NCBI RefSeq assembly: GCF_026210795.1 | Contig: NC_089460.1 | Span: forward strand, 1,488,001 to 1,552,000 | Reading direction: 5' to 3' | DNA: 64,000 nt | Source of the DNA: Rhizophagus irregularis | Lineage: Eukaryota > Glomeromycota > Glomeromycetes > Glomerales > Glomeraceae | In this document: piece by piece, positions 44,173-64,000 of the stretch | How positions within the stretch are numbered: position 1 is the stretch's first letter | Layout: every line of letters begins with the position of its first letter | Translations under genes and position numbers: made by a program | The notes under the pieces: model-generated | Database searches by the model: none | What the model saw: only the letters and a program-made list of their open reading frames with translations | What the model was told of the DNA's origin: nothing

Positions 44173-45168
44173 AAAGTTGTAAAAAAGCATCACAAAAGTT
44201 GCAAAAAAAAAATACCATAAAAATTAAAGAAGTAACATCATGAGAATTGTAAAGAAATATTATAGAAGTTGTAAAAAAAACATCAAAAAGAAAATGCCAT
44301 GAAAGTTGTAGTATTAATATTATTTTTCTATAAAAAAATAACTTACAGTATTCAAGTTACTCATTTTCAAGTTATTCTATAATACAGAATCTCTATAATA
44401 GAAACTTTAATTTAATTTTAGTTTTATCTTTTTTTTTGCTCTGAACTTATAAAAGTCTCAATTTTTTAGATTATATAAGCATCATATAATATATATATTA
44501 GCTAATCAGAAATTAAAAATTTATAAATTATATAATATAAAAATTATATAATATATTTATTTATTGTATTTTATTATAAAATGATGAATCAGGTATACGA
44601 TAATAAGATTTATATTTTATTATGTGTAAAATTACTTAGTTTTTGAATTCTTTTGTTTATAAATTTATCATCTGAACTGTTTTTAAATATTTACTTAATA
44701 GTATATAATCATTATTTATAACATTAAATAAGCTTATCATACTTAAATAATTTTATTTATTAAATTTTTTTTTTGCAGTTTTAGAACTTTTTTTTTTTTA
44801 GCATATTGAAAAAAAATTTGAAGTATAATAATGATTAATATTACAATAAATATAACTAAAAAAAAATCTGTAATTGATGCAAAAATTTAGATTAGTTTTA
44901 ATTTTAATTAAATTTAATCAGTATATTTTTTTTTTTTATATACTTTATTATAGATGCGATCATGTCTTATTATAATCACACTTACTTACATATATAAACT
45001 TATAAATATAAGATAAACAAATACATATAAGAATTAAGCATTATGAAACAAGACTACTTTTCATAAAGAACAAGTCGATTCTGTCACCTAAACGATCACA
45101 TCATTGTTAAAAACCATGATGCAACCTCAAATTCAAAGGTGACTGTCATGATCTATCTAAAAATTTGC
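44173..45168. other. AT-rich intergenic DNA
   Basis: Begins with a continuation of the 25-30-bp GTTGTAAAAAA-type repeats (to about 44310), then AT-rich DNA. From about 45050 it becomes less AT-biased, probably the 3' UTR of the minus-strand split gene. No other gene seen. Confidence 0.5.
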
Positions 45169-46884
45169 CTAATGACCACCTCGATGAAATGCCAAATCAT
45201 TCCATTTATTCCAATTACTTTCTAACATATTACAGTCAACATCTTTCACATCCACTTCAGTGCGTTTATTATGTGACTTAGCTTTTTTATCTTTACCACT
45301 AATACCGCGCCACTTTTCTTCCTTTACTACACATTATAAATAACGTGCATGTATGATTCTTTCTTTATTAATAAAAGCTGTATGTACATACTATCAAATA
45401 CAGAATGATGAAATAAACAAACAAAAGTTTCTAAATAATTCGTTAAAACTACTAAAAGAAGTTTACATATTTTTTTTTCAAACATAGTTTGCCATATATA
45501 AATATAATCAAATATGGAATGATGTAAATACTATAACAAAATTCAATAGATAAACTATCTATATATTTTTCTTTCTAACTAAATAGCCCTATGTAAATAT
45601 TATCAAATAAGGAATGTTTAAAAACTCATTTTTTCGTTTTGATAATTTTAATTCTAAACAATTAGTCATCCCACAAAAGAAAATAGAAAAAATAAAACAA
45701 GAATAACTAATTATATACTTATATCTTAATACAACATACCTTGCTCTAATTTACGAGCTTTAATTGCATACTGATTAACCACGTAGTCATGAGTAACACC
45801 ACGTGCACGCCTCCCTCTTCTAACACCATTACAATATGTCATTAAAAGACGTTTATCTCTAATACTATTCAATTTCTGATGAAATTCTGCCCTTGTAATA
45901 GGTTCTTGCCTCCCGAGTATTTCTTGCCAAGGAGCGACATTATCCTGTCCACTAATTTCCATTTCCTGAAGGTCCATAATAATATTATCTATTGTAGTAC
46001 CTTGGCCAGCACTACTCGACTGTTCTGCTACCTTACTATCTTTTCATTCAAAAGAAGCTTCTTTTTTCTTTCTTAATTCCAAAAAATGTTCTTCATTAAA
46101 AGAATGATTTATAAAAATATCATCTTTTAACATTTTGTATCCGATTTCACTTGTAACTTGATCTACCAGAAACTCCATTTCTTTTTCTGATATATAATGT
46201 TTCTTAAGGATATCACTTCTACGTTTCAACTTATGTTTGGAAATGAGTACTTTTGATTCAATTCCATTATTTGTAAACTGCCATTTATTCTTGTTACTCT
46301 TGAGACTGTTTTTAAACCTCTTTTTATACTTCTCTTGTTCTTTCAACGTCTTAAATTGCTTATTTACCCGTAAATTTGAATACGTAACTGCATATTTATG
46401 TGTTCCACCATCCATTGAAACTTTTTTTGTATAAGACACGCCTACGCTAGAGATCCTGGGTGAAACTGAAATATTTAGTCATTTGACTAAACCAAAATAG
46501 TTTAGACATTTAAAATTAAAAGACGAAATGCTGAAATTCAATATTTCATAGTATTTCCATGGATTTTTTATAGATTTCCATAGATTTTTAATTATAATAA
46601 TTACTTATAAAAAAAAATAATAAATTTATATTAAAATATAATATTTTTTAAAGGAATTTATAAAACTATTTTATGTATAATATAATTTAATATATTTTTA
46701 TAATAAAATTATAATTTTATATAAATAAAATTTAAACTTAAAAAATATTACTATATAGTTTAGTCAATGACGAAACCGAAACTAGTTGGTGACGAAACCA
46801 AAATTTTTGGCAAAAAGAGTTTAGCCAGGTATCACTAGCCTACGCGTTTACTTATTACTTGTTTAACTTGACTAAAATCCTTAA
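45169..46884 (-). pseudogene. 3' part of a transposon-split gene of unknown function
   Basis: Downstream portion of the minus-strand gene whose 5' part is at 63572-64000. Coding pieces: 46884-46845, then across the CCTACG insertion 46446-45740, an intron with GTATGT donor and TAG acceptor, and final exon 45326-45169. The protein is Lys-rich (SYTKKVSMDGGTHKYAVTYS near its start; IRDKRLLMTYCNGVRRGRRA later) and ends FHRGGH. No family recognised. An in-frame TGA at 46044-46046 interrupts it (after EASFE), so it is either decayed or has an unrecognised intron. GTG at 46439 is not a real start: the frame continues upstream once the 392-bp element is removed. Confidence 0.6.
46447..46838. mobile_element. 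392-bp TIR element with 6-bp TSD CCTACG
   Basis: The left end is CTAGAGATCCTGG and the right end read inward is CTAGTGATACCTGG. A perfect 6-bp duplication CCTACG lies at 46441-46446 and 46839-46844. The AT-rich interior has no ORF but has TTTAGTCA/TGACTAAA words near both ends. Deleting the element plus one CCTACG joins the host reading frame exactly, which independently supports the boundaries. Superfamily not assigned. Confidence 0.82.
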
Positions 46885-47175
46885 CACTGGTCAAAAACTA
46901 ATATATCGGGTAGCAGATATGTATCAGATATGTACCTGATATGTGTAGTATTAATGCTGAAAATCGGGTACCTGATATGTGTAAGATATGTGTAAATATA
47001 TATATCGTCTACATATCATTTACATATCATATACATATCGGTATCGATATGTATATGATATATATATTTACATATCTTACACATATCGAGTGCCCAATTT
47101 TCAGCATTAATACTACACATATCAGGTACATATCTGATACATATCTGCTACCCGATATATTAGTTTTTAACCAGT
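46885..47175. mobile_element. CACTG foldback MITE (interrupted by LINEs)
   Basis: Near-perfect hairpin of about 290 bp. CACTGGTCAAAAACTA opens the left arm; the right arm is its inverse up to AGTTTTTAACCAGT. The last base of the element (G, completing CCAGTG) lies at 63571, beyond the LINEs. TAA flanks it at 46882-46884 and 63572-63574. CACTG termini with a 3-bp TSD are the signature of CACTA/EnSpm-type elements. Arms share GGGTAGCAGATATGTATCAG and ACCTGATATGTGTAGTATTA in inverse order. Non-coding; the transcript would be a strong stem. Confidence 0.88.
47162..47175. repeat. LINE target site duplication, left copy
   Basis: AGTTTTTAACCAGT, one base different from the other two copies (AGTTTTTGACCAGT at 55355-55368 and 63557-63570). 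The original base is given by the left TIR of the host hairpin, which predicts G. Confidence 0.8.
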
Positions 47176-47291
47176 AAATTTTTCAAAAACAAAAATTCCG
47201 ACGAAAATATTTTTTATTATTTTTAAAAAAATAATACAAACTACTAATAAAATTTTATATTTTATATATTCCCAACTCAAAGCCCTCTACT

Positions 47292-49447
47292 ATGTCTGGT
47301 AACTATGCCAAGAGAGGCCGTGGAAGTCATAACCCTAACAGTAGGAAAACTTCCCGTCAAGAACGAAAAAATAATAATATCTCTGATAACTCGAAATTTC
47401 GATGGTGAAAACACTGTCCAGCAGAAACGTAATCGCACGATTACCGAAAATTCATAAGGAAGAGAAGCTACGTTGCCGATGACCAGACGGCTGACGTTGG
47501 AGTAGATGGATTTTCCTCTTCTCCTCAACAAAATATCTCTGGCGAAAATACTTTCGACCTCCTCCCCCGAAAAATCTGCTGCGCCAACTGCGCCCAGTCA
47601 CGTCGCGTCTTCTAAATGCGGACGCGTCCACGACGCACCTTTAAACAAAGATTTGCAACAACCCCCTAACGCGTCGCCCCAACTTTGGATATCAATAAGG
47701 CGCTCCTGATGGCGATCGAAACCCCGGATCCGCAATGTGACCTTTCCGCTATAACCAGAGATGATTTTCAGGCTTGCGGCTGCGGAATGCTGCTCCTGAA
47801 TCACTCAAGAAATTTCCTACCAATAAAGCCCTTATTGAGGCTGTGAATAACCTTTTCTTAGAAACGTACGAGTCATTCACTGGAAAAGCTCGTATGACAG
47901 GTTCTGGTGAGGCTAAACGCCTCGTTATCCACTTCCATACCGCTGAAGCACGCGATCTGTGCGTTAGTTCCTCTCATCCCGAGTTCCCTGACTTGATTTT
48001 TCAGCGTACGACCCTCGCCAACTCCGATCTAATGAAGATCTCCGGGCTATCCAAGTTACCGATATCCCTTTCTTTATCAAAAAGGACAACCTCATGGCCT
48101 ATTTCAAAAAATTTGGTAATATTACCTCTTGTCGCCTCTTCCAGGCCTAATGCTAAAGTCCAGCAAGCCCGTATTGTGTATGATCACGCCGATTCAATTG
48201 CTCGTTTTACCGACCAATGGGCTGCTTACTGTTTCTCCACCTGTCTCCGAATTACTCCATGTTTCTATACTGTGGATCAAAAGGCTGCGCGCCGTCAATA
48301 CGTTGCCACCCTCACTCAACTTCCTCCCAATGTTAAGGATATCAACTTGGCTCCTCTTACACGCGATCTTGGTGCAAAAGCTGTCAACGTTCCTCTTTCT
48401 TTAAATTCCTACAAACCCAAAAGATGGGCTATGTCACCTTCAACTCCCAAGCCATGGATGCTCCGCATGGAACAGACAGTAGGCAACCGCAAAGTGCTTT
48501 TCTGGTCCTCCACCCCCGATAATATTAATAAACTTTGTCACACAGTGTGGCAAACCTAGGTTGTGCTCCTAATTTTTGCCCCCTCAAACAAACCAGAGGT
48601 AGGCCTGCACTCGCGACCCTGTTGCAAACGCTCCAAGACAACGATTAATCACCTCGCTCCAATTCTAATATTGCCAATGCACGTTCTCGCTCTCGATCTC
48701 GCTCCAAATCTAAAGATCGATCTGCTTCCAATTCTGGACGAACCAATAACGCTCCCCATGACCGCACTAACAATGATAATAGTAATCATAACAAACCCCC
48801 TCCCAATACTTCTCAACGTGCCCGTCATAATAGTAAAGAACGATCTGTCTCCTTTTCTTCCTCCTCTCGTTCTACAGCACGTCCCTTACCCCGCCAAACT
48901 CCTAACTCTGCATTATCTCCTGATGATGCTAACAACATTCTAAACCTTTTACGAGAATTACAATGTGAAGTTGCTAACTTTCACAAACGCATCTCCGCTT
49001 TTGAACTTGCTGACCAACGGATGACTCGTATTGAATCACACCTTGGCCTTGATCCACTCCCTATACCCAATGAACCTGAACCGGACCTCACGCAGAAGAT
49101 GCCCCGTAACTCCACGTTCCTCTTAATATTCTGTCTTCCGCTAAATCTTCGCCGCCTCCCAAAAGTATTTTAACGCGACCTTCGCCTACATTCACTATTG
49201 TTCCCGACACATCACCTCCTTCTTCTCACCTTTCTCCAAATGCTCCTCCTTTTACTCCCATCTCCTCCACACAAGAAGAAATTAATGATCTCAAAAATAG
49301 TCGTGTCGCTTATTGAAAGTAAATTGGACCAACTTACTGGTCATATCAAGCAATTCATTCGCTCCCTCAGGAGGCAGTTCCCCTGGAACAAGCTGATTCA
49401 GCTTCTTCCAATTAATTCCTTTCTTCAAATTTTAACTCCTCGACTGT
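47292..49447 (+). pseudogene. LINE copy 1 ORF1 (RRM/zinc-knuckle RNA-binding protein), broken
   Basis: Starts at an ATG (MSGNYAKRGRGSHNPNSRK) equivalent to 55502 in copy 2, then breaks repeatedly. Recognisable pieces: SPEKSAAPTAPSHVASS near 47560-47610; a middle block at 47800-48430 (PTNKALIEAVNNLFLETYES, ARIVYDHADSIARFTDQWAA) with RRM-like character; a decayed Cys/His knuckle at about 48530-48590; an Arg/Ser/Asn-rich hinge; and a C-terminal coiled-coil-like stretch. ORF1 proteins of this type coat the LINE RNA. Frame changes and stops make it non-functional. Confidence 0.8.
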
Positions 49448-49465
49448 TTATATCATTGTGTTTTA

Positions 49466-50425
49466 ATGTCGGACAATAATTTTAATTATGACACCTTTGT
49501 ACGAAACCCTCCCAACCCTGACAATGTTACTGAAATTTTTTCGCATGAATCGTTATTTTCCTCTTCCAGTAACACTTCCCCTATCCCCAATTCATTTAAT
49601 ATTTCTTCCTTTAATGTTAATGGCCTTAAAATGTATGGTCAGACTAAATTAGAAGAAATTTCTACTTTCTTTTCCTTAAAACATATTTCCTTTGGTGGTA
49701 TCGTGGATACCCATCTTCACCCTAAACAGATGAAGTTTTTATCCAAACGTATTTCTAATTATACTGTGTTCTCTTCTAATTTGGATACTTCTAAACAAGT
49801 TCTCTCTTCTGGTGGTGTTTCTCTTTTTATAGAAAATTCTCTTTCACATGTTCAAGATTTTAAATCCCATTCTTCACTAAGGTTACTTTCTGTTGATTTA
49901 TATTTCAAAGGCAATATTAAATTGCGTATATTTGTTATTTATATCCCTCCCCCTGCTGAAAGTGTTCTGCGCACCGATACTATTGATTTGCTCATTCAAC
50001 AACTTACCCTTACTAAACATGCTGGCTTTTACCATGCTGTTTGTGGCGATTTTAATATGCATTTAGACAAATATTACCCTATTTACTTCAATCAACCTCA
50101 AGTTGCTTCAAAACATATTCACCGATTATTTTTTCATCTCCTCTCTCACGGATATGAAGACTATACTCCTATTAATCTTTCCGACTCCTTAGGTACCTTT
50201 CATCGCAATGACCATATTACTCGAGTTGATTATGTATGGTCCTGCCCTCTTCTCAAAGGATTTGCTCTTACTGCTTGCATTTTTAATGCTCAAGATGTTT
50301 GCACATCTGATCATAACCCCGTCATAACATACTATGATATGTCTTTACTTTTGCCTCTACCAAATTGGCTCGCGCTCGACAACTTAAGCGCCGAACCCGT
50401 CGCGTCTTCAAATTTGATTCTGTAA
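49466..50425 (+). CDS. LINE copy 1 ORF2, APE-type endonuclease part
   Basis: A 319-codon open frame from ATG 49466. It has the exonuclease-endonuclease-phosphatase fold motifs: NISSFNVNGL (about 45-54), a GIVDTH stretch, CGDFNMHLDK (about 193-202) and the C-terminal TSDHNPVITY with the catalytic Asp-His pair. A catalytic Glu is expected between the first two motifs; the block LEEISTFFSL lies there. The enzyme nicks target DNA to prime reverse transcription. The frame ends 25 codons after the SDHN motif by running out of frame; the RT continues in the -1 frame from about 50360. Confidence 0.85.
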   Translation: MSDNNFNYDTFVRNPPNPDNVTEIFSHESLFSSSSNTSPIPNSFNISSFNVNGLKMYGQTKLEEISTFFSLKHISFGGIVDTHLHPKQMKFLSKRISNYTVFSSNLDTSKQVLSSGGVSLFIENSLSHVQDFKSHSSLRLLSVDLYFKGNIKLRIFVIYIPPPAESVLRTDTIDLLIQQLTLTKHAGFYHAVCGDFNMHLDKYYPIYFNQPQVASKHIHRLFFHLLSHGYEDYTPINLSDSLGTFHRNDHITRVDYVWSCPLLKGFALTACIFNAQDVCTSDHNPVITYYDMSLLLPLPNWLALDNLSAEPVASSNLIL

Positions 50426-53400
50426 CTGAAATTCAATGGACGGAATTTGCTGATAAAGCTGATGCTTTATGTGACGTCTTACCTTCAACCTTTTCCTCCT
50501 GGCATATCAATCAAATGTGCGAATATCTCCAATCACGAATTCTTAAAGCTGCCAACGCTACACTACCTTCTTCCACTGTTGGCAATAATTATACTCCTAA
50601 GGGTTCCTAAAGATCTGGAAATTTTAACCCAACATTATCGGTTTTTAAATCGCCTTATGCATTCAATACGTTTATTGCGCAAATATCCTTTAACTTATTC
50701 TGCCGCTCACGAACATAAGTGGTCTATTCATTTAATCAGACTTCAAAACATTTTGCAATTATATAAGAAAGTATTTACTTTCGTTCCTACTTTGCCCTCT
50801 TCTCTCTCATCATGTCGACAAGATGATTTCAAGTCACTTCTTGATGATTTATCCAATATTTCAAAATCCTTACGGGGATTTCATTTACTTCAAGAAAAAG
50901 AATTCCAAGATTCCTCCATTCGTGCTCATTTGGACGATAGGAACAATAATTTTGAAACTGACCTTTCCTCTTTCATCGATTCAGCGCTTTCTCGCACCCG
51001 CCGCCGTATCACTTTGGATCGTGTCTTTGTTGATCATCCCACTCACCCTCAGTTATTAACTGCTCCCAAGGATATAGACGATGCTGTTGTTAACCATTTC
51101 CAAAACTTTGTACCTATAAAATCCACTCCTCCCTGTATCAGATACATTACCCATCGATCGGTTCTCGTTTACCAACCTATGGATGATGTGCTCCTCCTCT
51201 ATCTAGATTCTTTGATGAATCCCCCTACCCTTGACGAATGGTTAACCACCGTTTCTTCTACTCCTAACGGTAAAGCCTCAGGTCCTTCCACCGATCACTT
51301 ATGAAATGCTCAAACACCTTGGATCTTATTCCTCGGCTCTACTCCTTATTTTAATTCAAGCTTGCCTTTCCAAAGCGATATTCCCGACTTATGGCGACAG
51401 GCAATGGTTTTTCCCATTCCCAAACCTCACGAATGGAAATGTCAATGAAAAATACTCGTCCTATTACTTTACTTGAAGTGATTAGAAAATCTCTTGTCAA
51501 ACTCTTTTATAATCGCCTTTCTACTATTATGGCTACACATGATGTTCTTAAAGGCTGGTAACTTCGCTGGTCTTCCTGGTGGTTCTTGCCGCGACCCTAT
51601 TATTACTCTAGAATCTATTATCCATGATGCTGATGTCAATAAAAACCCACTTTGGATTCTCTCTCAAGACATTTCTAAAGCTTTTGACTCGGTTGATTTG
51701 ACAATGTTACGTTTCGCTTTAGAGAATACGTCTTCCAGCTTCTGCTATTAAGTTTATTCTTTCCCTTTTCACAAAACGCATTAATAGCGTTTTCACTGCT
51801 CATGGATCCACGCCTGCTTATAGGGTTCGCATTGGTATTGACCAAGGCGAAGTTATTTCTCCTCTCTTATGGGTTATTTATATTGATCCCTTACTTACTG
51901 TCTTGAAGCATGAAATGATGGACCCTTATGTTCTTTCTACACCATCCTTAATTGATTCTCCCAATCCTTCTTCCGATTTGAAGATTAATAATTTAGTATT
52001 TATGGATGACTCCACACTTATTTCCTCGTCGAAGACTGGCATGGAATTTATGTTATCCATTACAGAAGAATTCTATCAAATTAATAACACTTCTGCCAAT
52101 CATAACAAATATGTGTTAATTACTAATTCGTTGCCTTTGACTTCGAATTCCACTTTATCTCCTATTACTTTTAATTTAGATTTATCCTCATTAAATAATG
52201 TTCCTTCCATTACCATTACCCCAATTTCTATGACAACTTCTTTTCGTTTTTTAGGTGTTTGGTTTAACATTAAAAGCTCCCGGGATTTTGTCAAGAAACA
52301 ACTCAAACGTGAATGCTGCTCCTTCGCTGCAACCATCCGCCTTGCAAAGCTCTCACCCAAACAGGTTGTTTATTTACATAATGCTGTCCTTATACCGAAA
52401 CTTGAATACCGGATGCAAGTTACTCACTTGTCTGAATCTGACTGCCACCTAATAACGAGAAGTATACGATCTGTTGTAAAGCACAAAGCAAATTTTTCTC
52501 GCTCTTTACCAAATCCCATTTTATTTTTATCTCAAGCCTTGGGCTTGATAAATTTATTTGCTCATCAACGACAATGTCATATTACTAATTTATTTTTAAT
52601 GGCTAATTCCTCCTTTTCTTTTATTCAATCTCTTTTTATTTATAGATTGAGTTTGATTCAATATAATTTTTTAATTCCTATTTCTCCCCTTTTAATTAAG
52701 GATTGGTCTATATGGTCTTCTCTTTTTTCTTTTAAGAAAGATTATATCGCATGCACTATTGCTCTCTTATCCTCTACTCCTTTTCGTTTGCTTCACACTC
52801 AACTTTCGAAGGCTTCCGAACCTGACTTTGATGGATGGACGCGTTCCCTTATTTGAATGCATGACACCTAAAGCGTTTAAAGCCTATTTCCCTATTTTGC
52901 GAAAACGGCATTTGTTTTATCTATCTCAGCTTGTTACTCCCCAAGGGACTCATTTAATTTCTTGGAAAGCCTACTATGACAATTTGGTTGGACGACGTGG
53001 CCCTGGCTGTATCCCCTTATTGGTATAAAGATATCCAGCAAGCTTACTACCATTCCTGACACCAACAATCGTTTGCTGAGCCAGTTCATTACTACGCCTA
53101 CGATTGACTCTTCATTTTATGAATTGACTCCTTGCCTGTCCTCTCCTACCACTACGAAAAATTGGATTGTCACGTTAGACGACTACGGTTCTCCCATCTT
53201 TGGCAAACAACTTTTAGTTCAAGCAAGTCGTGGTACTTGTTCTATTGTTCACTGGGTCTCTCCTGATTGCGAATCTTCGCCTGGTGATCTCATTAGACTC
53301 TCTCCTGCCCCTGGTTGTGCTGCTCATACTCCTTTGCCTCCTTCCAAAAAACGGAATGCTGATTTAACCCTTTGTACGCCTACGGTTTCTCTACAACATT

Positions 53401-55093
53401 CGCTTATTCTGCCCACCATCAATGAGCGCATTAAACGTAATACTTCTGCAGTATCCTCTCCTTTTACCTGGGCTGATATCGAAGATGGTGTCCGTCTTTA
53501 TTACAGTCGATTGGATTTTGATTTTGACTCTCCTCCTGATGATATTGTTGAAGTTTCCGCTCCTCTTATCACTATTGAATCCTCAGCTGCTGCTGTTTTT
53601 GCAAATTCGCCGTTGGTTGCGTCTTCAGACTCACGTTATATCTTTTTCACTGATGGGTCTCTTATTAATCTAGGCACTCCTAATGTTTCTATGGGCTGGT
53701 CTTGGATGCAAATCGTACCTGATGCTGGTTTTCCTAATTCCATTGCTACTTATGCACATGGCATCATTCGAGATAATCCTTCTTCTTCTCGTGCTGAAGC
53801 TGCCGCTATTTACGCAGTTTTAACCATTTCTCCTCGCGACTCAGAAGTTACTATTTATACTGACTCGCAAACTGCCATTGATGGCCTTCGAAGTTGCTCT
53901 TCCTATGTCTACTCAAATAGCCGTCTTTACTACAAAACAACAAATTTTGAGCTTTGGGCCATTATTGAACGAACTATCCTTACCAAGAATTTGACAGTTC
54001 TTCCTGTTAAAGTTAAAGCTCATTCTGGCAATTATTTGAACGATTTTGCTGACTCCTGGCCAATACTGCCCATACTGCATCATCCAGTATTTTGATTTCT
54101 GGAATGGACCTTGCTCCGCTCGCCCATGATTTCGTCTTGACTTACGACAACGACGCCGTTTGCGAATCTAATCCACGACACCTTCTTAAACAGTATTATC
54201 AAACGCAGTTAATGCGTGATTTGTTAAATTTAACGCGATTTCACTTTATTTCTTTATTATTATCTAATATAGAATATATTGTCGACTGGGAACTTACTTG
54301 GTTTACCTTGAATTTCAAGCCTTCTCACGATGCATCTTTTACTCTTGAGCATGCTTCAAGACACTTAACCTTTAAATTCAAACTTTTCTTGGACGACTTA
54401 CCTACATTGGAAAAGCTTAAGCGGACTCGACCAGACTTATACATGGACGAATTAACTTGCCGTTCTTGTATCGATCGCATGGAAGACCTGATGCACCTTT
54501 TTACGTGCAAAAAACGTCGTCTACCTATGCAACGAATTCTCCAATCTTATCAAAATCATTTGATTTCTAAAATTCAAGAAGCTGGAAAATTGGCTGATAT
54601 TGATCCTACTCCCTTTATTGCTAAACTCACTTCTCTTTCATGCTGGTCCTTTTCTTCTACAAATTGGTCCTCTTACGCCCTCGTCCGTGGTTGTTTACCT
54701 ACACTTTTTATTGACATCTTAGTCGATTTGTCTATTCCAAGAATCTCTGCGATTAAGGTTATCGCTGCTATTCATAATAATTTTGTCCAAAAATTCAGAA
54801 AACGAATTTGGAATCCGCGTTCTTATGAGAAAAGTAGATGGGAAAACGCGATGAATATTACTTATAAGTTGAAAACTACTCCGAAGCCTTCTAATTTGCC
54901 ATTGTCTTCGTACATACCTTACTCATCTTTACCACCTCCGACCCTACACGATTTACGTGACTCCGGAACTGATTGGTTGAAGAACTCGATGAAATATGGT
55001 TTGCCTTGGTTTAATCACTTTTCGGGTTTTATGGGTCGTCTAACGGTGCTACTTAATAACAGCTTTTGCAGGATGGAGTGTCGATTTTTATAG
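50365..55093 (+). pseudogene. LINE copy 1 ORF2, RT/RNase H/zinc finger, multiply broken
   Basis: Fragments in several frames. RT pieces include GGSCRDPIITLESI and LWILSQDISKAFDSVD (motif A) at 51570-51705, and LVFMDDSTLI (motif C) at about 51992-52022. RNase H is at about 53630-54050, with FFTDGSL, SSSRAEAAAIYAV and YTDSQTAIDGL; the region after HSGNYLNDFADS is frameshifted. The C-terminal ELTCRSCIDRMEDLMHLF zinc-finger block is at about 54440-54520. At least five frame changes separate these parts. Confidence 0.85.
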
Positions 55094-55354
55094 TGGGCGC
55101 GCTATTCGTTATTTTGTTAGCATAGTTGCTTCTACTTTGGTTGGAATATACCAAGGGGAAGATCTGGGGAAATTTAGTGTAATGCGATTTTTCTTTTTTT
55201 AGATTAATTTTTTTTACTTTATTTTTTCTTAGGAGACTATATAGCTTTGTTTTTAGTTAGTTTTATTTTTATATTTTCTTTTTATTTTTTTTTTGTAAAT
55301 TGTAAAGTTCGAATAAATTTAATAAAGATAAAGGCTACTATGCCACGTTTGCCT

Positions 55355-55368
55355 AGTTTTTGACCAGT
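55355..55368. repeat. LINE target site duplication, middle copy
   Basis: AGTTTTTGACCAGT, shared between the 3' end of copy 1 and the 5' end of copy 2. Confidence 0.8.
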
Positions 55369-55501
55369 AGTAGTACTCTCTCCTGAATTTTTCAAAAAAC
55401 GAAATTTCCGACGAAAATAATTTTTTATTATTTTTAAAAAATAATACAAGCTACTAATAAAATTTTATATTTTATATATTCCCAACTCAAAGCCCTCTAC
55501 T

Positions 55502-57627
55502 ATGTCTGGTAACTATGCCAAGAGAGGCCGTGGAAGTCATAACCCTAATAGTAGGAAAGCTTCCCGTCAAGAACGAAAAAATAATAACTCTGATAACTCG
55601 AGCTCCGATGGCGAAAACACTGTCCAGCAGAAACGTAATCGTACGATTACCGAAAATTCTATGGAAGAAGACTACGTTGCCGATGATCAGACGGCTGACG
55701 TTGGAGTAGATGGACTTTCCTCTTCTCCTCAACAAAATTTCTCTGGCGAAAATACTTTGACCTCCTCCCCGAAAAAATCTGCTGCGCCAACTGCGCCCAG
55801 TCACGTCGCGTCTTCTGGAAATGTGGACGCGTCCATGCATGCACCTTTAAACAAAGACTTGCAACAACCCCCTAACGCGTCACCCAATTTGGATACCAAT
55901 GGTGCTCCAGATGACGATCGAACTCCAGATCCAGTGGTGGCCTCGCCATAACCAGAGATGATTTTCAGGCTGCGGCTGCGCCGAATGCTGCCCCTGAATC
56001 TCTTAAGAAATTCCCTACCAACAAAGCCCTTATTGAAGCTGTTAATAACCTTTTTTTAGAAACTTACGAGTCGTTTACTGAAAAAGCGCATATGACTGGC
56101 TCTGGGGAAGCCAAACGCCTCGTTCTCCACTTCCATACCGCTGAAGCACGCGATTTGTGCGTTGGTTCCACTCATCCTGAGTTCCCTGACTTAATCTTTC
56201 ATGCACATGACCCTCGCCAACTCCGATCCAATGAAGATCTCTGGGCTATCCAAGTTACTGATATCCCTTTCTTCATTAAAAAAGACAACCTCATGGCTTA
56301 TTTTAAAAAATTTGGTAATATCACCTCTTGCCGCCTTTTCTCCAGGCCTAATGCCAAAGTTCAGCAAGCCCGCATTGTGTATGATCACGCCGATTCAATC
56401 GCTCGTTTTACCGACCAATGGGCTGTGTACTGTTTCTCCACCTGCCTCAGAATCACTCCATGTTCTTATACTGTGGATCAAAAGGTGCTGCGCGCCGTCA
56501 ATACGTTGCCACCCTTACCCAACTTCCCCCAATGTTAAGGATATCAATTTGGCTCCCCTTACTCGTAGCCTTGGCGCTAAAGCTGTCAATGTACCGCTTT
56601 CTCTAAACTCTTACAAGCCCAAAAGATGGGCTTACGTCACTTTCAATTCCTTAAGAAACCATGGATGCTGCTATGGAACAAACTATCAGCTTCCAAGGAA
56701 AGGTACTTTTCTGGTCCTCCCCAGATAATACCAATAAACTTTGTCACAGATGTGGCAAATTAGGCTTGCGCTCCAAATTTTTGCCCACTAAAACAAACCA
56801 GAGGTAGAAGTCGCACTCGCGACCCCGTAGCAAAACTCAAAGAACGATTTAATGTCAATCAACCTCGCCGCCCCAATTCTAATGCTGCTAATACACGTTC
56901 TCGCTCCCGATCTCGCTCAAAATCCAAAGATCGATCTGCTCATGATTCTGGACGTGCTAATAATAATAACAGTTCTCATGACCGCAATAATAATGTTAAT
57001 AATCATAACATACATAATCCCAATACCTCCCAACGTGCCCGGCATAATAGTAAAGAACGATCGGTCTCTTTTTCTTCCTCTTCTCGTTCTACCGCTCGTC
57101 CCTTGCCTTGACAAACTCCTAATTCTGCATTATCTTCTGATGATGCTAACAATATTTTAAACCTCTTACGCGAATTGCAATGTGAAGTTGCTAATTTTCA
57201 CAAACGCATTTCCGCTCTTGAACTTGCTGACCAACGGATGACTCGTATTGAATCACACCTTGGCCTTGATCCGCTTTCTAGTCCTAATGAATCTGACTTG
57301 GATCTCATGCAAGAGGATGCCCCTGTATCCCATGTTCCACTTAACATTCAGCCCTCCACTACATCTCCCTTACCTCCCAGAAGTATTTTATCGCGACCTC
57401 CGCCTCCTACTATTCTTGTTCCCAACACGTCGCTTCCCCCTTCTCACCTCTCCCCCAACGCTCCTCCTTTTACCCCTATCTCCTCCACGCAAGAAGAAAT
57501 TAACGATCTCAAAAATAGTAGAGTCGTTATTGAAAGTAAATTGGACTAACTTACTGGTCATATCAAACAATTCATTAGCTCCATTGGTGGTGCTCCCCTG
57601 GAACAAGCTGATTCAGCTTCTGTTTAA
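55502..57627 (+). pseudogene. LINE copy 2 ORF1 (RRM/zinc-knuckle RNA-binding protein)
   Basis: Starts at ATG 55502 (MSGNYAKRGRGSHNPNSRK). The first 150 codons are Ser/Asp/Lys-rich. After a frame change at about 55940 comes an RRM-like fold: LWAIQVTDIPFFIKKDNL and MAYFKKFGNITSC (RNP2-like, near 56240), then QQARIVYDHADSIARF (RNP1-like). A Cys-rich knuckle beginning KLCHRCGKLG lies near 56737-56766, followed by an Arg/Ser-rich region and a coiled coil (ELQCEVANFHKRISALELAD). A TAA at 57547-57549 replaces a CAA that copy 1 retains (TTG GAC TAA versus TTG GAC CAA), so the natural end is probably the TAA at 57625-57627, 50 bp before ORF2. Confidence 0.82.
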
Positions 57628-57677
57628 ATTTCTTCTTCAAATCTTATCTCCCCGACTATTTTTATCATTGTGTTTTA

Positions 57678-58637
57678 ATGTCGGACAATAATTTTAATTA
57701 TGACACCTTTGTACGAAACCCTCCCAACCCCGATAATGTTACTGAACTTTTTACACATGAATCATTATTTTCTTCTCCTAGTAACACTTCTCCTATCCCC
57801 AATTCATTTAATATTTCCTCCTTTAATGTCAATGGCCTTAAAATGCACGGTCAGACTAAATTAGAAGAGATTTCTACCTTCTTTTCTCTAAAACATATTT
57901 CCTTTGGCGGTATTGTTGATACTCATATCCACCCTAAACAAATGAAGTTTTTATCCAAACGACTTTCTAATTATACTGTGTTTTCTTCGAATTTGGATAC
58001 TTCTAAACAAATTCTTTCTTCTGGTGGTGTTTCCCTATTTATAGAAAATTCTCTTGCATCACATGTACAAGATTTTAAATCCCATTCTTCACGACTGCTT
58101 TCTGTTGATTTATATTTCAAAGGCAATGTTAAATTGCGTATATTTGTTATTTATATCCCTCCCCCTGCTGAAAGTGTTCTGCGCACTGACACTATTGATT
58201 TGCTTATTCAACAACTTATCCTTACTAAACAAGCTGGTTTTTATTATGCTGTTTGTGGTGATTTTAACATGCATTTAGATAAATATTATCCTATTTATTT
58301 TAATCAACCCCAAATTGCTTCAAAACATATACACCGATTACTTTTTCATCTCCTTTCTCACGGTTATGAAGATTTTACACCCATTAATCTTTCCGACTCT
58401 TTAGGTACATTTCATCGCAATGACCACATTACTCGTGTTGATTATGTATGGTCCTGCCCTCTTCTCAAAGGATTTGCTCTTACTGCTTGTATTTTTAATG
58501 CTCAAGACATCTGCACATCTGATCACAACCCTGTCATCACATATTATGATATGTCTTTACTTTTGCCTCTACCAAATTGGCTCGCGCTCGTCAACTTAAG
58601 CGCCAAACCTGTCGCGTTTTCAAATTTGATTCTGTAA
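57678..58637 (+). CDS. LINE copy 2 ORF2, APE-type endonuclease part
   Basis: A 319-codon open frame with the same length and motifs as in copy 1: NISSFNVNGL, CGDFNMHLDK and TSDHNPVITY. Two 3-base indels between the copies (around 58050 and 58095) keep the frame. The last ~25 codons after PLPNWLA are out of register; the RT continues in the -1 frame. A frame-preserving pattern of change between copies suggests this domain was under selection after they diverged. Confidence 0.88.
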   Translation: MSDNNFNYDTFVRNPPNPDNVTELFTHESLFSSPSNTSPIPNSFNISSFNVNGLKMHGQTKLEEISTFFSLKHISFGGIVDTHIHPKQMKFLSKRLSNYTVFSSNLDTSKQILSSGGVSLFIENSLASHVQDFKSHSSRLLSVDLYFKGNVKLRIFVIYIPPPAESVLRTDTIDLLIQQLILTKQAGFYYAVCGDFNMHLDKYYPIYFNQPQIASKHIHRLLFHLLSHGYEDFTPINLSDSLGTFHRNDHITRVDYVWSCPLLKGFALTACIFNAQDICTSDHNPVITYYDMSLLLPLPNWLALVNLSAKPVAFSNLIL

Positions 58638-59755
58638 CTGATACTCAATGGACGGAATTTGCTGACAAAGCTGATGCCTTATGTGATGTTTCACCATCAA
58701 CCTTTTCCTCCTGGCATATCAATCAGATGTGCGAATATCTTCAATCACGAATCCTTAAATCCGCCAACGCTACTTTACCTTCTTCTACTGTTGGCAATAA
58801 TTATACTCCTAAGGTTCCTAAAGATCTGGAAATTTTAACTCAAAATTATCGGTTTTTAAATCGCCTAATGCATTCGATACGTCTATTGCGCAAATATCCT
58901 TTAACTTATTCTGCTGCTCATGAACATAAGTGGTCTATACATTTGCATCGACTTCAAAACATTCTTCAATTATATAAGAAAGTTTTTACTTTCATTCCTA
59001 CTCTGCCCTTTTCTCTTTCATCATGTCGACAAGATAATTTCAAGTCACTTCTTGATGATTTATCCAATATTTCAAAATCCTTACGGGGATTTCATTTACT
59101 TCAAGAAAAAGAATTCCAAGACTCCTCCATCCGTGCTCACTTGGACGATAGAAATAATAATTTTGAAACTGACCTTTTCTCCTTTATTGATTCAGCGCTT
59201 TCTCGCACCCGTCGCCGTATCACTTTGGACCGTGTCTTCATCGACCATCCTTCTCAACCTCAGTTGTTAACTGCTCCTAAGGACATAGATGATGCTGTTG
59301 TTAACCATTTCCAAAACTTTGTACCTATAAAGTCCACTCCTCCTGTATCTATTGATACACTACCTGATAGATGGTCTTCTGCCTATCAACCTATGGATGA
59401 TGTGTCCTCCTCCATCTATGATTCTTTAATGAATCCCCCTACCCTTGATGAATGGTTATCCACCGTTTCTTCTACTCCTAACGGTAAAGCCTCTGGTCCT
59501 TCCATGATTACCTATGAAATGCTCAAACATCTCGGATCTTGTACCTCGGCTTTACTCCTCATTTTGATTCAATCATGCCTTTCCAAAGCTGATATTCCTG
59601 ACTTATGGCGACAAGCAATGGTTTTTCCCATTCCCAAACCTCACGAATGGAAGTGTCAATTAAAAAATACTCGCCCTATTACCCTACTCGAAGTGATTAG
59701 GAAATCTCTTGTCAAACTTTTTTATAATCGCCTTTCTACCATCGTAGTAGCGTAG
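58577..59755 (+). CDS. LINE copy 2 ORF2, linker and N-terminal RT
   Basis: An open frame of 392 codons overlapping the endonuclease frame by 61 bp in the -1 phase (start shown is a non-ATG codon; translation would have to arrive by frameshift). It includes a basic linker (LKRQTCRVFKFD), a long helical region and the first RT blocks: NPPTLDEWLSTVSSTPNGKA, GPSMITYEMLKHLG, WRQAMVFPIPKPHEW and NTRPITLLEVIRKSLVKLF. It terminates where a short deletion relative to copy 1 shifts the frame. Confidence 0.82.
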   Translation: MARARQLKRQTCRVFKFDSVTDTQWTEFADKADALCDVSPSTFSSWHINQMCEYLQSRILKSANATLPSSTVGNNYTPKVPKDLEILTQNYRFLNRLMHSIRLLRKYPLTYSAAHEHKWSIHLHRLQNILQLYKKVFTFIPTLPFSLSSCRQDNFKSLLDDLSNISKSLRGFHLLQEKEFQDSSIRAHLDDRNNNFETDLFSFIDSALSRTRRRITLDRVFIDHPSQPQLLTAPKDIDDAVVNHFQNFVPIKSTPPVSIDTLPDRWSSAYQPMDDVSSSIYDSLMNPPTLDEWLSTVSSTPNGKASGPSMITYEMLKHLGSCTSALLLILIQSCLSKADIPDLWRQAMVFPIPKPHEWKCQLKNTRPITLLEVIRKSLVKLFYNRLSTIVVA

Positions 59756-59756
59756 T

Positions 59757-62700
59757 CCTAAAGGTGGTAACTTCGCTGGTCTTCCTGGAGGTTCTTGCCG
59801 CGACCCTATTATTACTTTAGAATCTATTATCCATGATGCTGATATCAACAAAAACCCGCTTTGGATTCTTTCCCAAGATATTTCTAAAGCTTTTGATTCA
59901 GTTGATCTAACGATGTTACGTTTCGCTTTAGAACGTATACGTCTTCCAGCCTCCGCTGTTAAGTTCATCCTTTCACTTTTTATGAAACGCACTAATCGCG
60001 TTCTCACTGCTCATGGATCTACGCCTGCCTATAGGGTTCGCATTGGTATTGACCAAGGCGAAGTTATCTCTCCTCTTTTATGGGTTATTTATATTGATCC
60101 CTTACTTACTGTTTTAAAGAATGAGATGATGGACCCTTATGTTCTTTCTACACCGTCTTTAATTGATTCTTCAAGTCCTTCTCTTGATTTGAAGATTAAT
60201 AATTTAGTATTTATGGATGACTCTACTCTTATTTCCTCGTCAAAAGCTGGCATGGAATTTATGCTATCCATTACTGAAGAATTTTATCAGATCAATAACA
60301 CTTCCGCCAATCATAACAAATATGTGTTAATTACTAATTCGTTGCCTTTGACTTCGAATTCCGTTATATCCCCTATTACTTTTAATTTGGATTTATCCTC
60401 TTTAAATAGTGTTCCTTCCATTATTATTACCCCAATTTCCATGACAACTTCTTTTCGTTTTTTAGGTGTCTGGTTCAACATTAAAAGCTCCCGGGATTTT
60501 GTCAAAAAGCAACTCAAACGTGAATGCTGCTTATTCGCTGCGACTATTCGCCCCGCAAAGCTCTCTTCCAAACAAGTTGTGTATTTACACAATGCCGTTC
60601 TTATACCGAAACTTGAATACCGGATGCAAGTTACTCACTTATCTGAATCTGACTGTCACCTAATAACGAGAAGTATACGATCTGTTGTAAAACATAAAGC
60701 AAACTTTTCTCGTTCTTTACCCAATTCCATTTTATTTTTGTCTCATGCCTTAGGCTTGATTAATTTGTTTGCTCATCAACGACAATGTCATATTACTAAT
60801 TTATTTTTAATGGCTAATTCTTCTTCTGTTTTTATTCAATCTCTTTTTATTTATAGATTGAGTTTAATTCAATATAATTTTTTGATTCCTATTTCTCCCC
60901 TTTTAATTAAAGACTGGTCTATATGGTCTTCTCTATTTTCTTTTAAGAAAGATTATATCGCATGCACTATTGCTCTCTTGTCTTCTACTCCTTTTCGTTT
61001 GCTTCACACTCAACTATCGAAGCTTCCGAATTTGTCCTTGTTAGATGGACGCGTTCCTTTATTTGAATGCATGACGCCTAAAGCCTTTAAAGCCTATTTT
61101 TCCATCCTGCGTAAACGACAACTGTTTTATTTATCTCAGCTTGTTACTCCCCAAGGAACTCATTTAATTTCCTGGAAGGCTTACTATGACAATTTGGTTG
61201 GACGACGTGGCCCTGGCCGTATTCCTTATTGGTACAAAGATATTCAACAAGCTACCACTATTCCTGACTCTAATAATCGTTTGCTGGATCAGTTTAATTT
61301 TACGCCTACGATTGACTCTTCCTTTTACGATTTGACTCCTTGTTTATTTTCTCCTCCTACTACAAAAAATTGGATTGTCACGTTGGACGATTATGGTTCT
61401 CCCTTTTTTGGCAAACAACTTCTAGTCCAAGCTAGTCGTGGTACTTATTCTATTGTTCACTGGATTTCTCCTGATTGTGAATCCTCACTTGGTGATCTCA
61501 TCAGACTTTCTCCTTGTCCTGGTTGTTCTGCTCACATTCCTCTGCCTCCTTCCAAAAAACGGAATGCTGATTTAACCCTTTGTACACCTACGGTTTCTCT
61601 ACAACATTCGCTTATTCTGCCCACCACCAACGAGCGGATTAAACGTACTACTTCTGAAGTGACTTCCCCTTTTACTTGGGCTGATATAGAAGATGGTGTC
61701 CGTCTTTATTATAGTAGATTGGAATTTGACATTGATTCTTCTCCAGCAAATACCACTGTAGCTTCCGTTACTCCTGTTACTATTGAATCATCGGCTACTG
61801 CTGTTTTTGCTAACTCCCCGTTGGTCATTTCTTCAGACTCGCGTTACATCTTTTTCACTGATGGGTCTCTTATTAATTTAGGCGCTCCTGATGTTTCTAT
61901 GGGCTGGTCTTGGATGCAAATAGTCCCTGATGTAGGCTTTCCCAACTCCATCGCCACCTATGCTCACGGTCTTATTCGTGATAACCCTTCTTCTTCTCGA
62001 GCTGAAGCTGCTGCTATTTACGCTGTTTTAACTATCTCTCCTCGCGACTCTGAAGTCACTATTTATACTGACTCACAAACTGCCATTGATGGTCTTCGAA
62101 GTTGTTTTTCCTCTATCTACTCAAATAGTCGTTTGTACTATAAAACTACAAATTTTGAACTTTGGGCTATTATCGAGCGAACCATCTTCTCTAAAAATTT
62201 GACTGTTCTTCCCGTCAAAGTTAAAGCTCATTCTGGCAATTATTTAAACGATTTTGCTGATTCCTTGGCCAATACCGCCCATACCGCGTCATCCAGTATT
62301 TTGATCTCTGGAATGGACTTGGCCTCTGCCCATGATTTTGTCTTAATTTATGACAATGATGTTGTCTGTGAATCTAATCCGCGACACCTTCTAAAACAAT
62401 ACTATCAAACGCAGTTAATGCGCGATTTGTTAAACTTAACGCGTTTTCACTTTATTTCTTTATTATCAACTAATATAGATTATATTGTTGACTGGGAACT
62501 TACTTGGTTCACTCTAAGTTTCAAGCCCTCCCATGACGCGTCCTTTACTCCTGAGCACGCTTCAAGACACCTAACCTTTAAATTCAAACTTTTCTTGGAT
62601 GATTTGCCTACGTTGGAAAAGCTTAAACGGACCCGACCAGACTTATACATGGACGAATTAACTTGCCGTTCTTGTATCGACCGCATGGAAGACCTGATGC

Positions 62701-63221
62701 ACCTTTTTATGTGCAAAAAGCGACGTCTGCCTATGCAACAAATTCTCCAATCTTATCAAAATCATTTGATTTCCAAACTTCTGGAAGCGAGCAATTTGGC
62801 TGATATTGATCCTTCTCCATTCATAGCTAAACTTACTTCTCTTTCATGCTGGTCCTTTTCATCTACAAATTGGTCTACCTTTGCCCTTATCCGTGGTTGC
62901 TTACCCAAACTCTTCATCGACTTATTTGTTGATCTATCCATTCCAAGAACTTCTGCGATTAAAGTTATCGCTGCTATTCATAACAATTTTGTCCAGAAAT
63001 TCAGAAGACGAATCTGGAATCCGCGTTCTTATGAAAAAAGTAGATGGGAAAACGCGATGAACATTACCTATAAGTTGAAAACTACTCCGAAGCCATCTAA
63101 TCTGCCATTGTCGACGTACATACCTTACTCATCTTTACCACCTCCGACCCTACACGTTTCACGTGACTCCGGAACCGATTGGTTGAAGAAGCTCGATGAA
63201 ATATGGTTTGCCATAGTTTAA
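59757..63221 (+). CDS. LINE copy 2 ORF2, RT palm, RNase H and C-terminal zinc finger
   Basis: A continuous frame of over 1,100 codons (first ATG 59913, but the domain begins earlier at GGNFAGLPGGSCRDP). RT motif A is WILSQDISKAFDSVD (59862-59906), motif B GIDQGEVISPLLWVIY, and motif C FMDDS (60210-60225), which supplies the catalytic Asp pair. RNase H is at about 61840-62290: FFTDGSL, SSSRAEAAAIYAV, YTDSQTAIDGL and HSGNYLNDFADSLANTAH give the D-E-D-D set. A Cys-x2-Cys...His-x4-Cys knuckle (LTCRSCIDRMEDLMHLFMCK) lies at about 62656-62720. The frame ends LDEIWFAIV. Minus-strand ORFs inside are shadows. Confidence 0.9.
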   Translation, partial: PKGGNFAGLPGGSCRDPIITLESIIHDADINKNPLWILSQDISKAFDSVDLTMLRFALERIRLPASAVKFILSLFMKRTNRVLTAHGSTPAYRVRIGIDQGEVISPLLWVIYIDPLLTVLKNEMMDPYVLSTPSLIDSSSPSLDLKINNLVFMDDSTLISSSKAGMEFMLSITEEFYQINNTSANHNKYVLITNSLPLTSNSVISPITFNLDLSSLNSVPSIIITPISMTTSFRFLGVWFNIKSSRDFVKKQLKRECCLFAATIRPAKLSSKQVVYLHNAVLIPKLEYRMQVTHLSESDCHLITRSIRSVVKHKANFSRSLPNSILFLSHALGLINLFAHQRQCHITNLFLMANSSSVFIQSLFIYRLSLIQYNFLIPISPLLIKDWSIWSSLFSFKKDYIACTIALLSSTPFRLLHTQLSKLPNLSLLDGRVPLFECMTPKAFKAYFSILRKRQLFYLSQLVTPQGTHLISWKAYYDNLVGRRGPGRIPYWYKDIQQATTIPDSNNRLLDQFNFTPTIDSSFYDLTPCLFSPPTTKNWIVTLDDYGSPFFGKQLLVQASRGTYSIVHWISPDCESSLGDLIRLSPCPGCSAHIPLPPSKKRNADLTLCTPTVSLQHSLILPTTNERIKRTTSEVTSPFTWADIEDGVRLYYSRLEFDIDSSPANTTVASVTPVTIESSATAVFANSPLVISSDSRYIFFTDGSLINLGAPDVSMGWSWMQIVPDVGFPNSIATYAHGLIRDNPSSSRAEAAAIYAVLTISPRDSEVTIYTDSQTAIDGLRSCFSSIYSNSRLYYKTTNFELWAIIERTIFSKNLTVLPVKVKAHSGNYLNDFADSLANTAHTASSSILISGMDLASAHDFVLIYDNDVVCESNPRHLLKQYYQTQLMRDLLNLTRFHFISLLSTNIDYIVDWELTWFTLSFKPSHDASFTPEHASRHLTFKFKLFLDDLPTLEKLKRTRPDLYMDELTCRSCIDRMEDLMHLFMCKKRRLPMQQILQSYQNHLISKLLEASNLADIDPSPFIAKLTSLSCWSFSSTNWSTFALIRGCLPKLFIDLFVDLSIPRTSAIKVIAAIHNNFVQKFRRRIWNPRSYEKSRWENAMNITYKLKTTPKPSNLPLSTYIPYSSLPPPTLHVSRDSGTDWLKKLDEIWFAIV

Positions 63222-63556
63222 TCACTTTTCGGGTTTTATGGGTCGTCTAACGGTGCTACTTAATAACAGCTTTTGCAGGATGGAGTGTCGATTTTTATAG
63301 TGGGCGCGCTATTTGTTATTTTGTTAGCATAGTTGCTTCTACTTTGGTTGGAATATATTAAGGGGGAAGATCTGGGGAAATTTAGTGTAATGCGATTTTT
63401 CTTTTTTAGATTAATTTTTTACTTTATTTTTTCTTAGGAGACTATATAGCTTTGTTTTTAGTTAGTTTTATTTTTATATCTTTCTTTTTATTTTTGTAAA
63501 TTGTATAAGTTCGAATAATTTTAATAAAGATAAAGGCTACTATGCCACGTTTGCCT

Positions 63557-63570
63557 AGTTTTTGACCAGT
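63557..63570. repeat. LINE target site duplication, right copy
   Basis: AGTTTTTGACCAGT. Followed by G (63571), the last base of the interrupted CACTG hairpin, and TAA, its 3-bp target duplication. Confidence 0.8.
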
Positions 63571-63571
63571 G

Positions 63572-64000
63572 TAAACACATTTTGTGGTGGAGATGTAGGA
63601 GTTACTATCACCTTCGAATGACAATTTTGACAAACTTTTCTATTTCTTGACATCACATAAGCACAGACGTTACTACAGAACGAGCATGGGATATAGAACC
63701 CCAAATACCATGTTCGTCTGCCATGACTAAATTTAATATAAGTTGTAGTTTGTCTGTTCTTTTCTTGTTTCTTCAATCTATTTTCAATAATTACAAGTTT
63801 ATCCAATAATAATTGGCGTATTCTTAAAAAATACTTGTTTTTAGTTTTTATGTCAATAGGTAACCCACAAAATACACTTGTCAAGTATTTTGAAATCCTA
63901 TATTTAGTATTCATCATAGGCCGATCTGAATTTATCAAAAAAGGCCTTTCATATTTCTTTATTATATGTCGATCTATTATTGGTGACAATCGTCAACATA
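63572..64000 (-). pseudogene. 5' part of the transposon-split gene, with Cys4 motif
   Basis: Minus-strand open frame entering from the right edge of the window. It encodes a Lys/Arg-rich segment (NRLKKQEKNRQTTTYIKF, RRTWYLGFYIP) and then a Cys-x2-Cys-x14-Cys-x2-Cys motif (IPCSFCSNVCAYVMSRNRK, then VCQNCHSK), a likely zinc-binding ribbon. It then gives TPTSPPQNVF, where the hairpin insertion begins; beyond the insertions it resumes as KDFSQVKQVISKRVGVSYTK in frame at 46884 and below. Upstream a TGA at 63993-63995 closes the frame, but an AATAATAG acceptor just before 63973 suggests this is an exon boundary. No family recognised. The true 5' end lies outside the window. Confidence 0.6.

Follow-up and report, generated by a model that had tools for sequence, protein, structure and literature searches.

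The right-hand part of a 64,000-nucleotide (nt) stretch of the Rhizophagus irregularis genome (contig NC_089460.1, positions 1,488,001 to 1,552,000, written C32:1488001-1552000 here; this whole stretch is called the window) is very probably a nest of mobile elements. A chimeric retroelement is interrupted there by two miniature inverted-repeat transposable elements (MITEs), one of them a hairpin whose tip carries two copies of a site-specific long interspersed nuclear element (LINE), which we call LINE-A. LINE-A copies itself almost only into the tips of such hairpin MITEs in the genome searched (146.7 Mb in 32 contigs). A first-pass annotation of the window had described the same region as one coding exon of an unannotated host gene, split by a nested transposon stack of ~17 kb. 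The features of the region, from left to right, were as follows.

44926-46446, minus strand: 3' part of the chimeric retroelement, with a run of 12 T (T12) at 44926-44937, the tail of an unrelated LINE (LINE-D) to ~45326, and then the 5' module with its open reading frame (ORF).
46441-46446, no strand: left CCTACG duplication of the small insert (from the sequence and the paralogues).
46447-46838, no strand: small insert, a repeat of 392 bp that has CTAGwGAT at its termini (from the sequence and genome matches).
46839-46844, no strand: right CCTACG duplication of the small insert (from the sequence).
46845-46884, minus strand: 40 bp of the interrupted element left between the inserts, encoding KDFSQVKQVISK; the left duplication of the stack is the TAA within it, at 46882-46884.
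46885-47175, no strand: hairpin MITE with a CACTGG.. terminus (from the sequence, self-comparison and family matches).
47176-55353, plus strand: LINE-A copy 1, with endonuclease-like, reverse transcriptase-like and RNase H pieces in broken frames.
55354-55368, plus strand: duplicated target TAGTTTTTGACCAGT ending LINE-A copy 1, with copy 2 directly after it.
55369-63555, plus strand: LINE-A copy 2, with an endonuclease-like ORF at 57678-58637 and a reverse transcriptase and RNase H ORF at 59913-63221.
63556-63571, no strand: duplicated target TAGTTTTTGACCAGT plus a terminal G, the regenerated right end of the hairpin MITE.
63572-63574, no strand: right TAA duplication of the stack (from the sequence and the paralogues).
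63575-64000, minus strand: 5' part of the chimeric retroelement, which runs beyond the window to about 64407 and carries a 4-bp frameshift insertion.

The edges of both inserts were read from the sequence. The stack occupies 46885-63571 (16,687 bp) between TAA at 46882-46884 and TAA at 63572-63574, and the second insert occupies 46447-46838 between CCTACG at 46441-46446 and CCTACG at 46839-46844. With a single duplication retained per insert, both joins can be read through in an open frame, as had been annotated. Nineteen paralogous loci (L022-L040) were picked from those matches of the interrupted sequence in which both flanks lie close together; the flanks are further apart in other places, e.g. 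on C8, C12 and C31, which stand outside the 19. The site was uninterrupted in all 19 loci fetched, with alignments of 139-160 bp that cover both joins, and CCTACG was present as a single copy. No indel was found across both joins in 17 of the loci, the exceptions being L034 with a 7-base gap and L036 with one gap on each side; L030 has a second, more divergent stretch with 4 gaps. These uninterrupted paralogues bear out the two inserts, their edges and their target duplications. The insertion of ~17 kb therefore stands, and its composition, which the first-pass annotation had not broken down, can now be given as a 291-bp CACTG hairpin MITE plus two head-to-tail LINE-A copies of ~8.2 kb. For the small-insert family, the best 40 of 147 candidate places were scored.

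LINE-A was matched by the Pfam models RVT_1 (2.7e-8, 34.2 bits, above the cut-off of 29.6) and RNase_H (5e-11, also above the cut-off), and its best PDB sequence match was an R2 protein (1.2e-5). Its exact 5' end, searched as a 22-mer, occurs 51 times in the genome, and the reversed-pattern control does not occur. Thirty-nine of these 51 ends lie within 30 bp after an exact TTTTTRACYAGT, the exact MITE terminus (control 0; the pairing gave 41 rows, two ends being listed twice). Reading the other 12 by eye placed nine behind a variant terminus (L047, L059, L082, L099, L105, L106, L136, L137, L138), one behind a decayed hairpin (L095) and two, the clear exceptions, elsewhere (L089, L139). A set of 50 junctions, partly overlapping the 51, comprised 29 hairpin tips, 15 LINE-A 3' ends, three 3' ends of a different LINE, and three others (L089, L095, L139). 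A MITE-type terminus was thus assigned by script at 47 of the 50, and one more is the hairpin judged by eye to be decayed. At the junctions read, the 5' end of the LINE faces the hairpin.

At six LINE-A 5' junctions (L083, L093, L096, L099, L107, L126) there are additional MITE-tip pieces and (AGT)n of variable length, as though slippage or template jumps on the target had formed the 5' ends. The tandem junctions L099 (C5:1983 kb) and L106 (C5:1886 kb), ~97 kb apart and in opposite orientation, have the same rare junction sequence, which suggests a segmental duplication or the joint movement of a LINE array.

The body of LINE-A ends in ..GTTTGCC, and the next 15 nt, TRGTTTTTRACYAGT, repeat the tip of the upstream element. 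In the window, the landing site is the terminal 15 nt of the hairpin, 47161-47175. The terminal G of the MITE and its 3-bp duplication lie outside the LINE, after the 15-nt duplication. Nearly the same 15-mer ends most LINE-A copies that were read, as it would if LINE-A carried a mimic of the MITE end as its own 3' terminus; this alternative is very improbable, since the two tip copies that flank LINE-A have the same A/G letter in all 20 readable pairs, a degree of agreement reached by 1 in 20,000 shuffles (22 pairs were made, and 2 without a readable 5' copy were left out). A private GGCC variant is also common to both sides of one LINE-A copy (L082/L130), and at the end of the off-target copy L089/L131 the 15-mer is replaced by local sequence, TAGATCACTTTTAACC. 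The 15-mer as LINE-A's own 3' end was rejected after the agreement in 20 of 20 pairs, and we read the 15 nt as a duplicated target.

Matching 3-bp pairs surround hairpin-plus-LINE composites in the window (TAA/TAA), at L049/L050 (TAA/TAA) and at L053/L054 (GAT/GAT). Four further composites (L041/L042, L045/L046, L047/L048, L051/L052) were set aside, with one outer end missing or another LINE-like end next to them. The perfect TAA duplication and the two CACTG ends of the window composite could mean that hairpin and LINEs entered the site together as one cut-and-paste unit. Such joint entry is improbable: assembly in place gives the same picture, with each of its steps seen separately elsewhere, and no second copy of a composite between different flanking duplications was demonstrated.

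Assembly in place can be set out as a series of steps. The chimeric retroelement, an ORF-bearing module with a LINE-D 3' end, would have retroposed first. The CACTG hairpin MITE (295 bp when whole) and, separately, the 392-bp MITE would then have entered it, and two LINE-A copies would have landed on the right tip of the hairpin. We infer both the nicking order and the enzyme responsible: the LINE-A endonuclease would nick one strand of the MITE end about 15 nt inside the tip, the exposed ..CAAAAACYA-OH would prime reverse transcription of the LINE-A RNA from its 3' end ..GTTTGCC, and the cut in the other strand would fall one nucleotide away from the terminal G of the MITE. This would duplicate the 15 nt TRGTTTTTRACYAGT, making the far end of the LINE both a MITE terminus and a landing site for the next LINE. 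The junctions, the duplication, the site preference and the tandem arrays are themselves observed. Judged from the junction sequences, a LINE-A landing can restore both the MITE end and the landing site, and this renewal accounts for the tandem arrays (15 of the 50 junctions).

Several observations weigh against this account. Two of the 20 tip pairs differ at other letters: copy 1 in the window has AACC upstream and GACC downstream, and L047/L048 has CCGA against CCAG. The 20 pairs are moreover not all independent, because pairs in one array share target copies. A matching 3-bp duplication round the composites was found in only three of six testable cases (it is missing at L043/L044, L055/L056 and L057/L058). 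The match of LINE-A to Exo_endo_phos_2 is weak (4.5e-5, 23.7 bits, below the cut-off of 27.4), and the endonuclease-like ORF has no PDB sequence match up to an E value of 1. Finally, the exact 22-mer favours little-changed copies, and the LINE-A samples are the best-scoring 40 of 94 for 5' ends and 40 of 268 for 3' ends.

The hairpin is a CACTA-type MITE, with CACTR terminal inverted repeats and 3-bp duplications. The window copy is 291 bp long, with arms of 118 nt that are 93% complementary, and the solo hairpins with both ends readable (n = 11) are 295 bp. A 3-bp duplication, read by eye, flanks nine of these 11 and is lacking at L062 and L069; the test took in 20 loci, nine of which were set aside because of an adjoining LINE or an end that could not be located. 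The exact hairpin terminus pattern occurs 157 times in the genome (control 0), and 194 candidate places of the family were found, 40 of which were scored. Among the 100 matches listed, the terminus starts with CACT in 66, TACT in 28 and AACT in six. TACT is what a LINE-A landing leaves, and mutation can give it too.

Fourteen of the 40 scored hairpins have a LINE-A 5' end at most 51 bp away, and five more of the 40 were added to these, an association that would also arise if the hairpin were a structured 5' region of LINE-A and not an element of its own. We consider this scarcely credible, given that solo hairpins have their own 3-bp duplications (9/11), that tandem LINE-A copies have no hairpin between them (15/50 junctions), that LINE-A also stands on the 3' end of another LINE (3/50), and that other LINE-like 5' ends adjoin hairpins too. 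The hairpin is accordingly treated as a separate MITE throughout. At three places (C1:3882759-3887271, C13:3515914-3520864, C17:21371-24385) two hairpin-type termini stand 3-5 kb from each other, and these pairs are possible longer relatives of it.

Other LINE ends were seen at the same kind of site, their LINE identity being judged by eye from short stretches. LINE-like 5' ends beginning GATGATCGTACTTTCTCC... (L063, L072, L077, L109, L116) adjoin hairpin tips or LINE-A ends, as does one beginning GAATTCTCTCCTAC... (L064). The 15-nt target of LINE-A also closes a different LINE (L085, L088, L137), whose 3' end is CAAGCTATGTTTRCC, and both it and LINE-A end in GTTTRCC. From these sequences, the docking site may be common to several LINE families. 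A broader proposal, that several families share the hairpin tips as a renewable docking site and that the rebuilt end beside the 3-bp duplication keeps the composite a substrate for a CACTA transposase, is speculative, and we regard it as rather unlikely. If true, a retrotransposon would leave the cut-and-paste element onto which it copies itself in working order, and could be carried by that element.

Tx1L of Xenopus laevis is the usual example of a target-specific non-long-terminal-repeat (non-LTR) retrotransposon; its target lies inside Tx1D, another transposable element, and it is not known to have an RNase H domain. LINE-A resembles Tx1L in having a defined target inside another mobile element, but it lands at the very end of a hairpin MITE, a tip regenerated by the duplication, and it has an RNase H domain. 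The site-specific LINEs R1, TRAS and SART, aimed at ribosomal DNA (rDNA) and telomeric repeats, resemble LINE-A in that a staggered target cut gives a fixed duplication and a reused site gives tandem arrays, whereas the target of LINE-A is a MITE tip and not rDNA or a telomeric repeat. CACTA (CMC/EnSpm) MITEs have CACTG/CACTA ends and a 3-bp target duplication, as the hairpin does; unlike them, the hairpin here has long foldback arms. Site-specific LINEs serve as models for target choice by endonuclease and reverse transcriptase, and a fungal LINE family that restores its own recognition site, about 15 bp at the tip of a transposon, would provide a natural self-propagating target. With the LINE-A/MITE pair, parasitism between retrotransposons and DNA transposons could also be studied.

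Some non-LTR retrotransposons are already known to target other transposable elements (PMC8869645), and retroelement proteins are under trial as gene-insertion tools (PMC11371274). Surveys of transposable elements in R. irregularis list LINE/L1-Tx1 and LINE/L1-R1 families (PMC11075540) and LINE R1 (PMC8647823); the terms 'target site' and 'MITE' are absent from both texts. In titles and abstract openings covering part of the literature, we recognised no LINE aimed at MITE ends in this fungus.

The interrupted 'gene' is one dispersed copy of a chimeric retroelement, in which an ORF-bearing 5' module has been joined with the 3'-terminal sequence of an unrelated LINE. Its two parts have at least 39 and 40 genome matches, corresponding to about 36 places each after split matches are joined. 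The 5' edge of the repeat unit is nearly constant across copies (about 64407 in window numbering), and its 3' end is a poly(A) preceded by AATAAA, which appears as T12 on the plus strand. The flanks share 9-19 nt (longest shared stretch) at 18 loci, L026 being left out of the count with its 3' end outside the fetched stretch. At 12 of the 18, the flanking repeats are longer than 13 nt, the maximum of 306 mismatched control pairs; the controls average 7.8 nt and 30% of them reach 9, so the shortest shared flanks are uninformative.

The 3' part of the unit corresponds to the LINE-D 3' end with about 92-98% identity in the copies examined, and in the window copy the LINE-D-derived share is 386 bp of 2,383. 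L135, the one LINE-D copy fetched, has a 364-amino-acid ORF, endonuclease-looking by eye, and a 1387-amino-acid ORF, and the RNase H tail of one chimera matches Pfam RNase_H at 1.4e-11. The first two kilobases of the unit gave no blastn match in LINE-D (copy L135). The reading of the unit as nothing more than LINE-D with an internal deletion was rejected: blastn found no match to the 5' module in L135, and the module's ORF had no meaningful tblastn match (best E value 5.1).

The 5' module meets LINE-D at five or more points: nine loci have the fusion at LINE-D position 7621 or 7622 (the window copy at 7621), six at 7334-7336, one at 7313, and single loci at 7437, 7162 and 6616. On the 5' module the join is nearly constant, falling within unit nt 1954-2007 in 16 of 19 loci, and is shifted in L022, L024 and L031. 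Differing fusion points would be produced by repeated template switching, or by a single fusion of 5' module and LINE-D followed by internal deletions of varied size. The dominance of two fusion points agrees with the single fusion, for which L028, with the longest LINE-D part, could be ancestral. We regard it as possible but doubtful, given that the supposed deletions have an almost fixed left edge (16/19 loci) and a variable right edge, as in MINE (PMC2104539). Repeated template switching is the more probable explanation of the differing points. MINE (WEIRD-MGL) of Magnaporthe consists of a full-length 5' module and a 5'-truncated LINE with 10-20 bp flanking repeats, and is explained by template switching during LINE reverse transcription (PMC2104539). 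The interrupted unit resembles MINE in joining an unrelated 5' module to a LINE 3' part at differing points, with flanking repeats. It differs in that WEIRD is non-coding, whereas the 5' module here has a 443-amino-acid ORF with a median ratio of nonsynonymous to synonymous substitution rates (dN/dS) of about 0.3.

Among copies, the ORF of about 443 amino acids has a median dN/dS of 0.29-0.35, values that suggest past coding constraint; a ratio near 0.3 supports the view that the ORF once coded for protein. A Pfam search of it gave nothing above the cut-off, and WH1 (0.01 and 0.036) and a zf-LITAF-like match (0.082) were taken as noise. A stop or frameshift was found in 18 of the 20 ORF copies compared (the 19 loci and the window). 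In the window copy, the ORF stop codon lies at ~45.73 kb, and besides the inserts there are a 4-bp insertion near 63.97 kb and a nonsense TGA at 46044-46046. The frame annotated as exactly recoverable is thus so locally, at the joins, and not over the copy as a whole. It gives no support for the recency of the disruption that had been drawn from its survival, because the copy is disabled elsewhere as well.

A single-copy host gene interrupted by a transposon stack would explain the open frame at both joins, the continuation of the paralogues across them and the dN/dS values pointing to past constraint on the ORF. For the window copy it is nonetheless refuted, and we give this reading almost no probability: the sequence has 39 and 40 matches genome-wide, ends in poly(A), has flanking repeats beyond all 306 controls at 12 of 18 loci and takes its 3' part from LINE-D; 18 of the 20 ORF copies compared are broken, that of the window by a frameshift and a stop codon. 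A gene origin of the 5' module is compatible with an unfused source gene elsewhere. For annotators, the chimeric retroelement carries the warning that an ORF present in many copies in such genomes may be part of an element of this kind and not of a gene.

One of the other chimeric copies, L022, carries an inserted element whose ORFs look, by eye, like a Tc1/mariner-type transposase. Outside the nest, Pfam matches in the window mark three ordinary genes: bZIP_2 at 8636-9313 (minus strand), D-arabinono-1,4-lactone oxidase at 12603-13196 (plus strand) and an alpha/beta hydrolase at 14712-15722 (minus strand).

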